DNA of 47,107 bases from Pseudomonadota bacterium (lineage in GTDB: Bacteria; Desulfobacterota; Desulfobulbia; Desulfobulbales; Desulfocapsaceae): NCBI GenBank assembly GCA_018817385.1, contig JAHIUA010000031.1:1-47107 (forward strand). Reading direction: 5' to 3'. The position numbers and the translations under genes were made by a program. The notes beneath the pieces are model-generated. The model was given only the letters and a program-made list of their open reading frames with translations. It was not told the DNA's origin and did not search any database. Positions within the stretch are counted from its first letter, which is position 1. Every line of letters starts with the position of its first letter. Shown here in pieces: positions 6,219-10,250 of this stretch.

Positions 6219-6303
6219 TGGTGCGAAAGGGGGGACTCGAACCCCCATACCGTAAGGCGCTGGTTCCTAAGACCAGTGCGTCTACCAATTCCGCCACTCT
6301 CGC
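6219..6303 (-). tRNA. tRNA-Leu (TAG), CCA encoded
   Basis: An 85-base class II tRNA on the minus strand. Acceptor GCGAGAG pairs with CTTTCGC allowing one G-U. The anticodon loop is CTTAGGA with TAG at 6267-6269, a long variable arm follows, the T-loop is TTCGAGT, and CCA is encoded at 6219-6221. It lies about 200 bases upstream of tig on the same strand. Confidence 0.97.
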
Positions 6304-6672: not shown

Positions 6673-7536
6673 ATGACGTACAAACAGACCATCACAGCCT
6701 GTGCCCTACTCATGCTTTCCTTCCCGCCTTCCCTGGTTTTTGCTGCGACCGATACTCAAGGAGCGTCAAAAATTCAGTGGCAGGTGGAAAAAAGCTGGAA
6801 ACTGCCGAGCACACCTTTAGATATTGTTTATTCCCTTGACGGAAAACGGGTTTTCATTCTTACCGATAAAAATGAAGTCCTGGCCTATACAGATACAGGT
6901 GAACTTCTTGGCTCCATACCTGTCGATAAAGGCGTATCTGCCATTGACATTGCCCCCCGAGGAGAAAAACTTTTCCTTATCAACCAGGCAGAAAACAGCT
7001 TCTCCGACCTCTCGGTGAGCTTTATTGTCAACATTGACACCACAGGATCGCCCTTTCTCGGAAATGAGAATGCACCGGTGACCATCGCCGTTTTCACGGA
7101 CTTTGAGTGACCTCACTGCGGCAAAGCAGTGCCGCTACTCGAGCAGGTGCTCGAGCATAATCCTGAGACAGTAAAAATTGTACTCAAAAACTTACCCCTT
7201 AATTTCCATAAATTTGCTCAACCTGCGGCACTTGCAGCGCTTGCAGCTGGTAACCAAGGAAAATACTGGGAATTTCATGACGCTCTTTTCGAAGCCCCTA
7301 AACTGGATGCCACTACCATTGATACCATTGCCACCAAACTTGGACTTGACATAAAAGTATTAAAAGAAGATATGGCCTCTGCTCAAATCCAGCAGAAACT
7401 CGCCAAAGATGTCTTTGATGCCCAGGAGGCAGGGGTAAGAGGAACTCCAACCATTATTATAAATGGTAGGTTGTTAAAGGAACGAAGCCTTGCCGCCATT
7501 CAGAAGGTTATTGATGAAGAACTCGCGAAGAAATAA
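6673..7536 (+). CDS. DsbA/thioredoxin-fold periplasmic protein, probable selenoprotein (TGA = Sec146)
   Basis: Read through one in-frame TGA at 7108-7110, this is a 287-residue protein. It has a signal peptide (cleavage near residue 24), then an N-terminal segment with two beta-propeller-like strand repeats (around YSLDGKRVFIL and IAPRGEKLFLI). A DsbA-type domain starts at GNENAPVTIAVFTDFE. The TGA falls exactly where the family has the first Cys of C-P-H-C, giving U-P-H-C. Downstream, 142 codons stay open and carry the cis-proline motif GTPT, so a nonsense pseudogene is unlikely. Known relatives act as thiol oxidoreductases or disulfide isomerases outside the cytoplasm. The start has GAGGA 8 bases upstream. 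Without Sec decoding the product would stop at 145 residues without the redox motif. Two hairpins just after the TGA could serve as the selenocysteine insertion element. The substrate is unknown. Confidence 0.85.
7108..7155 (+). promoter_or_regulatory. Sec codon TGA with candidate bacterial SECIS hairpins
   Basis: Directly after TGA (7108-7110) there are two perfect inverted repeats. The first is CACTGC (7114-7119) with GCAGTG (7126-7131) and loop GGCAAA. An outer GAGT (7105-7108) could also pair with ACTC (7137-7140). The second is CTCGAGC (7138-7144) with GCTCGAG (7149-7155) and loop AGGT. Bacterial elements are known to sit within about 40 bases of the UGA with G in the apical loop. The second loop starts 34 bases after the UGA and resembles the AGGU of E. 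coli fdhF. Which hairpin binds SelB is undecided. Confidence 0.6.
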
Positions 7537-7658: not shown

Positions 7659-8672
7659 ATGGCAGGCGAGCAACTGAGCAAAGATCTTTGTTTCCCGGAT
7701 AACAATCTGGCAGGGATCCTTTATGGAGAACTGAACAAAAACCTTCACTCACTAGAACAAAATACCGGTGTTCAAATTCATGTCCGTGGTAACGGGCTCC
7801 ACCTCATCGGTCTTAGCCATGAGATTGAGCTGGCAACGAATCTCCTCCAACAGTTTTATGGACTCATCAGCAAAGGATTTAAGGTCTACAGCTCAGATTT
7901 CGCCTTTGGCCTCCGTGTCCTCGAAACAAATCCGAACTGTCGTCTCGACAAGATTTTCCTGGACAAGGTCTACATCACAGCCCAAAATCGCATCATCTCT
8001 CCTAAGACCCAAAATCAGAAGACCTATATCGATTCCATCCGGAATAACGACATTGTCTTTGGAATCGGACCTGCCGGTACCGGAAAAACATACCTGGCCG
8101 TAGCGATGGCTGTTTCCGCGTTGAACAGCGGCCAGGTCCGTTCCATTATCCTTACCCGCCCTGCAGTAGAAGCCGGAGAAAAGCTCGGATTTCTACCCGG
8201 CGACCTGGCTCAGAAGGTCAATCCTTATCTAAGGCCTCTCTATGACGCCCTGAGTGACATGCTCGGAGCTGAAAAGAGTGCCAGCTTTATTGAACAGGGA
8301 ATCATTGAAATCGCCCCTCTCGCCTTTATGCGGGGAAGGACATTGAGTGATGCATTCATTATCCTGGATGAAGCCCAGAACACAACCAGAGAACAGATGA
8401 AAATGTTCCTGACCCGGATCGGATTCGATTCGTTAGCAGTCATCACCGGCGATGTTACTCAGGTGGACCTGCCACGCGCGGAACAGTCCGGATTATTGCA
8501 GGCAAAAAAGTTTTTACAAGGAATCGACGGAATCTCCTTCTGCAGTTTTTCAAAACAGGATGTTGTCAGGCACCCTTTGGTCCAAAAAATCATCGCCGCC
8601 TATGAAAACAATTCAGATTCCCATAAAATACGTCCTCGTCTCTCAGAACGTTTGCACTCCCCAAACCAATAG
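7659..8672 (+). CDS. phoH: PhoH-family ATPase (YbeZ-like)
   Basis: 337 residues. The N-terminal part resembles a small KH-like nucleic-acid-binding region (about 30-75). The PhoH P-loop ATPase domain has Walker A GPAGTGKT at 137-144, then LTRPAVEAGEKLGFLPGD and Walker B AFIILDEAQN. PhoH/YbeZ proteins usually sit next to YbeY and are linked to RNA metabolism. Here the ybeY reading frame starts 39 bases downstream. The start ATG has only a weak ribosome site, and no better start is seen. Confidence 0.93.
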   Translation: MAGEQLSKDLCFPDNNLAGILYGELNKNLHSLEQNTGVQIHVRGNGLHLIGLSHEIELATNLLQQFYGLISKGFKVYSSDFAFGLRVLETNPNCRLDKIFLDKVYITAQNRIISPKTQNQKTYIDSIRNNDIVFGIGPAGTGKTYLAVAMAVSALNSGQVRSIILTRPAVEAGEKLGFLPGDLAQKVNPYLRPLYDALSDMLGAEKSASFIEQGIIEIAPLAFMRGRTLSDAFIILDEAQNTTREQMKMFLTRIGFDSLAVITGDVTQVDLPRAEQSGLLQAKKFLQGIDGISFCSFSKQDVVRHPLVQKIIAAYENNSDSHKIRPRLSERLHSPNQ

Positions 8673-8711: not shown

Positions 8712-9908
8712 ATGCCGGCAAATATCACCATAAACTCGAACACCAGCAGATATCACCTGAACAGTAAGCTTCTGCAACGACGTGCAACATGGCTCATGCG
8801 CCAGCATCAGGTGGCAAACCATGAAATGAGTATTCTTTTTGTCGATGACCAGGAAATAAGCTGGCTCAACAACCATTATCGAGGCAAAACTGGTCCAACC
8901 AATGTCCTCTCTTTTCCCTTCGCAGATGATGCCGATCCTTGCCCAGGTATTATACCTATTCAGGAACTGGGCGATATCATTATCTCTGTGGAGACCGCTC
9001 ACAAGGAAGCCATCGATCTCAAAGTTTCTCTCCATGACCGGCTGACCTGGCTCATTACCCATGGCCTGCTCCACCTTCTCGGTTATGACCATGAGCGTTC
9101 CGAAAAAGAGGCTGAGGAGATGTGGGCCCTCGAAACCAACCTGATTCATCAGTTACAATCCTCCAGGAGTTATCAAATGACACATCTAGCTATTAACGTT
9201 GATCACGTCGCCACAGTACGCCAGGCCCGTGGCATCAACGAACCAGACCCTGTTACGGCCGCTGCGATCTGTGAACTTGCAGGTGCTGCCGGCATTGTTG
9301 TCCATCTGCGCGAAGATCGACGCCATATCAATGATCGCGATGTCCGGCTGCTACGGGAAACCATCAAAACCAGAATGAATTTGGAAATGGGGGCTAACAA
9401 AGAAATCATCGAAATCGCCCTGAAACTCAAACCTGATATGATCACCCTGGTACCCGAAAAACGCCAGGAACTGACCACGGAAGGTGGTCTGGACGTGGCA
9501 GGACAAAAGAAAAAACTTGCCAAAACCATCGCCAAAATGAACAAGGCAGGGATTCCAGTCTCACTCTTTATTGACCCTGAACTCAAACAGGTCCAAGCAG
9601 CCCTGGCAATTGGGGCCACCTATGTGGAACTCCACACCGGACGCTACTGCGATGCCACAAATGAAGAGCAAAGAGAAGAAGAGTACCAACTCATTGCCTC
9701 TGCTGCTGAAGAGGCATATCAGATGGGCTTACGGGTAAATGCCGGTCATGGACTCGACTACCAGACCACTTCAAAAATAGCATCCCTGGATACCATTGAA
9801 GAACTCTCCATTGGCCATGCCATTATCAGTCGGGCGGTTTTCGTCGGTCTCGACCAGGCAGTGAGAGAAATGCTGGCCATCGTTCGCAATGCATCAATTG
9901 TTTTTTAA
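8712..9908 (+). CDS. ybeY-pdxJ: in-frame fusion of YbeY (16S rRNA maturation RNase) and PdxJ (pyridoxine 5'-phosphate synthase)
   Basis: One open frame of 398 codons. Residues 1-155 are a full-length YbeY with the metal-binding motif HGLLHLLGYDHE (H-x3-H-x5-H) near residue 120. YbeY is a single-strand endoribonuclease for rRNA maturation and ribosome quality control. From Met156 on, a complete 243-residue PdxJ follows: it begins MTHLAINVDHVATVRQARG, the normal PdxJ N-terminus, and carries LVPEKRQE and HTGRYCDA. PdxJ condenses 3-amino-1-hydroxyacetone phosphate with deoxyxylulose 5-phosphate in PLP synthesis. No stop codon separates the two. However, the internal ATG at 9177 has its own ribosome site, so PdxJ may also be made separately. 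The neighbour phoH fits YbeY. The fusion could also reflect loss of a ybeY stop codon. Confidence 0.88.
   Translation: MPANITINSNTSRYHLNSKLLQRRATWLMRQHQVANHEMSILFVDDQEISWLNNHYRGKTGPTNVLSFPFADDADPCPGIIPIQELGDIIISVETAHKEAIDLKVSLHDRLTWLITHGLLHLLGYDHERSEKEAEEMWALETNLIHQLQSSRSYQMTHLAINVDHVATVRQARGINEPDPVTAAAICELAGAAGIVVHLREDRRHINDRDVRLLRETIKTRMNLEMGANKEIIEIALKLKPDMITLVPEKRQELTTEGGLDVAGQKKKLAKTIAKMNKAGIPVSLFIDPELKQVQAALAIGATYVELHTGRYCDATNEEQREEEYQLIASAAEEAYQMGLRVNAGHGLDYQTTSKIASLDTIEELSIGHAIISRAVFVGLDQAVREMLAIVRNASIVF
9165..9179 (+). promoter_or_regulatory. internal ribosome site and ATG for stand-alone PdxJ
   Basis: AGGAG at 9165-9169 precedes an in-frame ATG at 9177-9179 by 7 bases. The ATG is the position where PdxJ proteins normally start. 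A separately translated PdxJ would be 9177-9908. Confidence 0.65.
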
Positions 9909-10163: not shown

Positions 10164-10250
10164 GCCCGGATGGCGGAACTGGTAGACGCAAGGGACTTAA
10201 AATCCCTCGGTCGTAAGGCTGTGCGAGTTCGATTCTCGCTCTGGGCACCA
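10164..10250 (+). tRNA. tRNA-Leu (TAA), CCA encoded
   Basis: An 87-base class II tRNA. Acceptor GCCCGGA pairs with TCTGGGC. The anticodon stem AGGGA/TCCCT closes loop CTTAAAA with TAA at 10198-10200. There is a long variable arm, T-loop TTCGATT and genomic CCA at 10248-10250. Confidence 0.97.

Follow-up and report, generated by a model that had tools for sequence, protein, structure and literature searches.

The stretch of DNA analysed here, referred to as the window (47,107 nt), is contig 78 of a 5.38 Mb genome assembly in 105 contigs, 100% complete and with 2.67% contamination. It encodes a DsbA-like protein in a single frame that runs from ATG to TAA and holds one internal TGA, at 7108-7110. 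The features of this gene, together with the next gene downstream, are as follows:

6673-7536, + strand: DsbA-like gene with a predicted selenocysteine (Sec), 287 amino acids when the UGA is read as Sec; signal peptide, YVTN-like segment and DsbA domain
6673-6744, + strand: signal peptide, residues 1-24, assigned by eye; the N-terminus is hydrophobic in relatives too
6778-7014, + strand: YVTN propeller-like segment, residues 36-114, about two blades (match to PDB 1l0q, family profile)
7042-7533, + strand: DsbA/Thioredoxin_4 domain, residues 124-287
7108-7110, + strand: UGA codon for the predicted Sec146; TGA in 59 and a Cys codon in 47 of 106 relatives
7659-8672, + strand: phoH, the next gene downstream (Pfam PhoH, E 1.6e-97)

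The C-terminal part is recognised by the Pfam families Thioredoxin_4 (PF13462; residues 124-282, E 1.6e-26, 93.9 bits against a cut-off of 23.2) and DSBA (PF01323; E 6.8e-19, 68.8 bits against 25.6). It is also the only part with a good AlphaFold2 model (residues 121-287, 10-residue means of 82-97); residues 1-117 remain mostly below 50, since the input consisted of 13 sequences, of which just four besides the query cover the N-terminus. Membership in the NCBIfam family NF041057 (Rcas_1661 selenolipoprotein) was rejected, with 68 bits against a cut-off of 190.

Residues 25-126 have no Pfam match above the cut-off, the best being PQQ_2 with 15.6 bits against 27.6. The propeller-like character that the initial annotation gave to this segment is nevertheless supported by the surface-layer YVTN beta-propeller PDB 1l0q, with whose repeats residues 36-114 align. 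The protein itself matches it over residues 43-114 (whole-sequence E 3.9e-8, no single stretch passing alone), and the family profile does so with E 9.3e-13 and two passing stretches, even though the internal repeat is weak (p 0.004, probability 8%). A closed propeller in one chain was set aside on grounds of length: a closed YVTN ring takes at least four blades, whereas the match spans about 80 residues, two blades by sequence, in a region where the AlphaFold2 model is unreliable. This two-blade segment may have a role in oligomerisation or docking.

The active-site codon and its relatives

In the readthrough translation, the active-site motif U-P-H-C occupies residues 146-149 and G-T-P-T, taken from its sequence as the cis-Pro loop, residues 257-260; T258 and P259 are invariant in 40 aligned proteins of both the TGA and the Cys kind. 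The initial annotation had placed the TGA exactly at the first active-site Cys and proposed an alignment of homologues as the check. Homologues were found in 243 of 257 genomes of the class (protein search, E at most 1e-30), and 106 of these relatives (L001, L013-L041 and L069-L144), chosen among the matches listed and mostly best-scoring, were read codon by codon. The column holds TGA in 59 and a Cys codon in 47, and no other residue, a ratio that is not representative of the class because the sample consists mostly of best-scoring matches. Loci L042-L045 were left out of the count, three of them being duplicates of L013-L015 and one stopping before the Sec column. Named close relatives of the gene stand at 90% (a 'Proteobacteria' record), 89 and 68% (Desulfocapsa sp.) and 80% (a 'Pseudomonadota' record), which makes Desulfocapsaceae (Desulfobulbales) the probable lineage. 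Past residue 25, 104 of the 106 proteins have only two Cys or Sec residues. The window protein lacks one of the two cysteines of DsbA, the first active-site Cys being replaced by the predicted Sec, and its in-frame UGA is aligned with a conserved Cys of homologues, as in selenoproteins.

Beyond the TGA, the frame is continuous to the TAA, as had been noted, although over 141 sense codons rather than 142. The protein sequence of this downstream part is conserved in TGA and Cys forms alike, which argues that it is not decaying. A conserved stop followed by decay had been named as grounds for abandoning the selenoprotein reading; relatives instead exchange TGA and Cys, and the downstream part is intact. 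That the TGA is a plain stop in a dead gene, or a sequencing error, has next to no probability and was rejected: the stop does lie in frame, but 58 more relatives share it together with a conserved downstream frame, TGA alternates with Cys, the hairpins described below covary, and the genome has the sel genes. The product is very probably a secreted DsbA-like enzyme carrying Sec at its active site as the attacking residue, where it may raise reactivity, and its prediction as a selenoprotein of a known kind (DsbA-like, UxxC) is well supported.

Those sel genes, whose absence would equally have spoken against the initial annotation, are all present: SelA (528.5 bits), SelB (373.1 bits, cut-off 242.25), tRNA-Sec (selC; 75.8 bits, cut-off 47) and two selD genes, each with its own in-frame TGA and with a hairpin that, read by eye, starts about 14 nt past the UGA. 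Across the class, selA has a match (E at most 1e-50) in 212 of 257 genomes. Among the 96 genomes behind the 106 genes, selA is matched in 44 of 53 with UGA forms only, in 30 of 39 with Cys forms only, and in all four with both kinds (G136, G140, G143 and G150). Loss of the Sec machinery as the general cause of Cys forms is not supported by these 30 Cys-only genomes. Five of the nine UGA-only genomes without a selA match have tRNA-Sec (G106, G121, G123, G126 and G179); neither was found in the other four (G059, G114, G122 and G157), which are 74-87% complete. Four assemblies of one or two contigs (G113, G117, G126 and G127) have tRNA-Sec and no selA match at 1e-50, among them the two-contig G113, with a Cys form, and the single-contig G126, with UGA forms; in these, selA was possibly missed, broken or replaced. 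In a number of assemblies (including the one of locus L004, G000:C92:718), selA starts within about 200-700 nt of a contig end, and an Rfam search of a 3.3 kb selA locus gave no RNA family that would account for a break.

On a tree of the 106 proteins, built by a quick method with SH-aLRT support and giving no direction of change, 22 changes between Sec and Cys are needed, at least 12 of them on well-supported (starred) branches. When a paralogous clade of nine rows (L136, L139, L140, L124, L127, L120, L117, L122 and L126) is left out, 20 changes are needed, at least 10 of them on starred branches. The exchange reaches close sisters, L121 having TGC and L125 TGA. Earlier work described 15 Sec-to-Cys events in four families, with remnant SECIS elements (PMC1794560).

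The gene neighbourhood is shared by both forms. A phoH gene follows in 94 of the 102 relatives with at least 300 nt of sequence there (51 UGA and 43 Cys forms; median gap 8 nt), in L144 as a match to a phoH fragment only. The eight genes without downstream phoH all belong to the paralogous clade, whose remaining member L139 ends too early. Upstream, tig is found in at least 55 of the 95 relatives with at least 500 nt there, a lower bound owing to short flanks. In the window, YbeY (residues 26-148) and PdxJ (159-390) are fused in one frame of 398 residues at 8712-9908, and tRNA-Leu genes at 6219-6303 and 10164-10250 flank the dsbA-phoH-ybeY stretch. L042, L043 and L044 have two tRNAs each.

Two hairpins downstream of the UGA

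Positions in the RNA are given as columns counted from the T of the UGA, column n being window position 7107+n. A search for a bacterial SECIS had been proposed, and one is found after the TGA, with covariation in the 59 UGA genes. Its SelB-type hairpin (7138-7155) starts 27 nt past the UGA, and a second, proximal hairpin, the most unusual feature and one absent from the initial annotation, occupies the gap. Their parts, each arm resting on the consensus fold and on covariation, are:

7118-7122, + strand: proximal hairpin, 5' arm GCGGC
7131-7135, + strand: proximal hairpin, 3' arm GCCGC
7138-7144, + strand: distal (SECIS) hairpin, 5' arm CUCGAGC
7145-7148, + strand: apical loop AGGU of the SECIS hairpin, 34 nt after the UGA
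7149-7155, + strand: distal (SECIS) hairpin, 3' arm GCUCGAG

The distal hairpin agrees with the bSECIS consensus in its loop (3-9 nt), its stem (7 bp in the window, 4-16 bp in the consensus) and the G in the first two loop positions, and its UGA-to-loop distance of 34 nt (columns 4-37) lies inside the published limits of 16-37 nt (PMC13188914). In contrast to Escherichia coli fdhF, where the upper hairpin lies about 11 nt past the UGA, this distance is 27 nt in the window. The element has no family match in Rfam 15.

RNAalifold, run unprompted on the 59 UGA genes, returns both hairpins with 10 of the 12 named pairs: proximal 11-15/24-28 without 13-26, and distal 32-37/42-47 around a loop at columns 38-41. 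With 13-26 and 31-48 added, 94.7% of the cells of the UGA genes pair (at most 50.3% in slid versions), and changes on both sides of a pair occur in 28 cells against 7.9 in shuffles. Of the 58 distinct rows, 4 have pair 13-26 broken and just 29 form 31-48, the outermost distal pair, so the common distal stem is of 6 bp. The distal loop is AGGU in 56 class UGA genes and AGUU in three. The window's own 66 nt fold into both hairpins at -24.2 kcal/mol (z -2.3), with 3 of 200 shuffles as stable; an extra stem in that fold, columns 5-8/57-60, was discarded as absent from the consensus of the 59 genes.

The clearest case of covariation is pair 12-27, formed by the third bases of the codons for Cys149 and Pro154, where both changes are synonymous. 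In the UGA genes it is C-G in 39, U-A in 19 and U-G in one, with no mismatch, and 7.7 of 8 independent contrasts on the tree go the same way and none opposite (p 0.0078); in the Cys genes it is 1.8 of 5, with 0.3 opposite, which is not significant. The distal pairs 33-46, 36-43 and 34-45 give 4, 2 and 1 contrasts, of which 2, 2 and 1 go the same way and none opposite, short of significance because the class offers too few contrasts.

The 47 Cys genes still have 54.3% of cells paired, a value that slid versions (44.3% at most) do not attain and 11 of 500 shuffles do; for their covariation score, 123 of 500 shuffles come out as high. On the tree, Sec goes together with the proximal hairpin in 8.4 of 12 contrasts and with the distal hairpin and loop in 9.9 of 12, none opposite in either case. 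The hairpins were also compared with synonymous shuffles drawn from the codons of the Cys genes. At the 5% level, the distal hairpin stands out in 55 of the 59 UGA genes and in 2 of the 47 Cys genes; for the proximal hairpin the counts are 27 and 4, with a mean z of -2.26 and -0.62. The proximal comparison is less telling, as G and C already come with the protein motif: the proximal arms overlap the conserved codons of Cys149, Gly150 and Pro154, from which part of their stability derives. The fold energy of columns 10-29 has a median of -9.7 in UGA genes, all at -4.9 or below, vs a median of -1.4 among the Cys genes, which range from -10.7 to 0. Since 25 of the 47 Cys forms have AGGU as well, this loop is not diagnostic by itself, and a test based on it was dropped. 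All six inner distal pairs are kept in four Cys genes (L023, L025, L038 and L121), three of which (L023, L025 and L121) also keep all five proximal pairs; that the hairpins are still there suggests a change from Sec to Cys in these four. As seen from these sequence comparisons, both hairpins are kept up through compensatory and synonymous changes for as long as the codon is UGA, and in most cases decay as Cys takes its place.

Three residues follow the same division. Gly150 is present in 55 of 59 UGA proteins vs 5 of 47 Cys ones, Glu157 in 58 of 59 vs 18 of 47, and Gln158 in 59 of 59 vs 24 of 47; for Gly150, 9.4 of 12 contrasts on the tree agree and 0.1 go the opposite way (p 0.0039). All three would be residues held in place by the RNA, which drift in the Cys proteins.

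To look beyond the class, 395 genomes were drawn evenly from the phylum; 86 of them have matches (E at most 1e-25), 16 of these being genomes of the class. Among the matches listed, 16 full-length ones outside the class and 16 short-form TGA genes were examined; of the short forms, L184, L185 and L188 come from genomes of the class, and L181 and L182 complete a set of 18 outside TGA genes. In these 18, the distal hairpin lies in the same columns, with 95.2% of cells paired and a loop of AGGU in 12 and AGUU in six. The in-class proximal pairing is complete in none of them; another register, 15-19/24-28, is complete in 16. Over both helices, both-side changes occur in 30 cells against 8.4 in shuffles, those in the proximal hairpin falling at pairs 15-28, 16-27 and 19-24, and RNAalifold returns the distal hairpin together with the proximal 15-19/24-28 one. 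When columns 10-29 are folded alone, 15 of the 18 take this register; the proximal hairpins of L176 and L178 are in other registers, and the preferred fold of L182 is a different hairpin, at columns 11-25. Against synonymous shuffles, 14 of 18 proximal and 16 of 18 distal hairpins stand out at the 5% level. Within the class, L139 is the one gene with the outside register.

In folds confined to columns 10-29, the proximal hairpin ends at column 28 in 55 of 59 class genes and 13 of 18 outside ones, and it starts at column 11 in 55 of 59 of the former and column 15 in 12 of 18 of the latter. The proximal hairpin has hence been constructed in different ways, with its 3' end mostly staying two nt before the distal hairpin.

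The other 14 short-form genes (L183-L196) match only the DsbA part of the query, do not have the two-hairpin arrangement, and show neither proximal register complete; L193 has 6 of 7 distal pairs and, like L195, folds into one long hairpin, at columns 15-33. At L176:1956-2726, a second copy beside the UGA copy has TCA (Ser) at the Sec column.

Possible working of the insertion signal

It is highly likely that Sec is inserted at this UGA and that the proximal hairpin is part of the signal for it. In the mechanism that we propose, SelB would bind the distal hairpin with its AG[G/U]U loop, and the proximal hairpin would fold the extra length away, so that SelB is brought within reach. In E. coli fdhF, the SelB hairpin lies 11 nt past the UGA (PMC8659212). 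Folding the proximal hairpin out leaves 9 unpaired nt (7+2) in the class and 13 (11+2) in the outside register; a role as a folded spacer is favoured because 27 nt shrink in this way to 9 or 13, either side of the 11 of fdhF, and we regard it as the probable one. Such a spacer would not be strictly required, since the distal hairpin alone is within the published limit of 16-37 nt (PMC13188914).

The main rival to the folded spacer, and an unlikely one, is that the proximal hairpin acts as a roadblock, which, placed at the mRNA entry of the ribosome, would pause the UGA in the A site and favour SelB over release factor 2, by analogy with the Sec redefinition element (SRE) of some animal selenoprotein mRNAs. 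The proximal hairpin starts 7 nt (class) or 11 nt (outside register) past the UGA, close to the mRNA entry of the ribosome. Animal SREs, too, are structures that follow the UGA and coexist with a separate SECIS (PMC8704476), and a register and loop that change while a hairpin persists suit a structural role rather than one of sequence. However, what a roadblock should keep constant is its distance from the UGA, whereas it is the 3' end of the hairpin that is nearly fixed (column 28, 55/59 and 13/18) and the 5' start that differs between the groups.

Even less probable is that the proximal hairpin has no present role, being either what is left of an older SECIS hairpin in the usual position or a by-product of G+C-rich codons together with protein constraint (Cys-Gly, Pro-Leu). 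The single long hairpin of the short-form L193 and L195 does occupy the place of the proximal one, and just 27 of the 59 class genes beat their synonymous shuffles at 5%. Yet a by-product would explain neither the synonymous covariation at pair 12-27 nor the changes on both sides of pairs 15-28, 16-27 and 19-24 in the outside genes, 14 of 18 of which beat the shuffles; nor does it fit the decay in Cys forms (median fold energy -1.4 vs -9.7) or the hairpin being present in another register in 16 of 18 outside genes and in L139 within the class.

Returning to the folded spacer, the whole would amount, with fair probability, to a two-part bacterial Sec signal, in which a SelB hairpin 16 nt farther away than that of fdhF is reached through a second, spacer-folding hairpin. 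The junction between the two would be nearly fixed while the proximal registers differ between classes of one phylum, and the RNA would dictate Gly150, Glu157 and Gln158, which drift once Sec gives way to Cys.

Redox role and known systems

The product would be a periplasmic thiol/selenol-disulfide exchanger, more likely a reductase or isomerase than a net oxidase. A selenenylsulfide is a weak oxidant, and the DsbB gene of the genome adjoins another, Cys-type DsbA-like gene (L002); both points favour the reductase or isomerase. Alternatively, the enzyme could be DsbA proper, the chief oxidase of the periplasm, partnered by DsbB and only sped up by Sec, which we consider possible but doubtful. 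The P-H dipeptide in its active site is that of E. coli DsbA, its domain and fold matches are of the DsbA type, and the genome does encode a DsbB. Against this, the DsbB gene is not at the window gene, the source genome has no match to VKOR, and its three DsbD/CcdA-type genes could feed a reductase or isomerase. Moreover, ScsC-type proteins, a group with isomerases among its members, are among the closest folds.

As a selenoprotein, the protein extends a known family, and the new part is the two-hairpin insertion signal, of which no description was found in the open-access literature searched, most subscription papers lying outside that search. Models of the bacterial SECIS limit the distance from the UGA to the SelB loop, and a tandem signal makes this constraint directly testable. 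The tandem arrangement seems to fold the extra length away; it occurs in the class and in relatives from other parts of the phylum, and decays together with Sec. The family also represents a natural experiment in the exchange of Sec and Cys, mostly in genomes that keep selA.

Among known systems, ScsC, BdbD, alpha-DsbA2 and PDB 3gyk match the window protein over the DsbA domain only and have no Sec. Closest to it are the DsbA-like and DsbG-like UxxC selenoproteins, listed from computational prediction in some deltaproteobacteria, which likewise have Sec for the first active-site Cys of a DsbA/Thioredoxin_4 domain (PMC1794560, PMC9312934, PMC13188914); as far as the accessible text of these sources describes them, the window subfamily differs in its YVTN-like N-terminus, its usual place before phoH and its two-hairpin signal. 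With the animal SRE it shares a structure just downstream of the UGA in addition to a SECIS, by analogy only, since the animal SECIS lies in the 3' UTR, whereas both hairpins of the window are in the coding sequence, 2 nt apart (PMC8704476). Compared with E. coli fdhF and the bSECIS model, as set out in the available text of their descriptions, the window family has a second, covarying hairpin between the UGA and the SECIS hairpin (PMC8659212, PMC13188914), the base of the latter lies 27 nt from the UGA rather than 11 (PMC8659212), and the consensus stem of the 59 UGA genes is without the bulged U (PMC8659212, PMC13188914).
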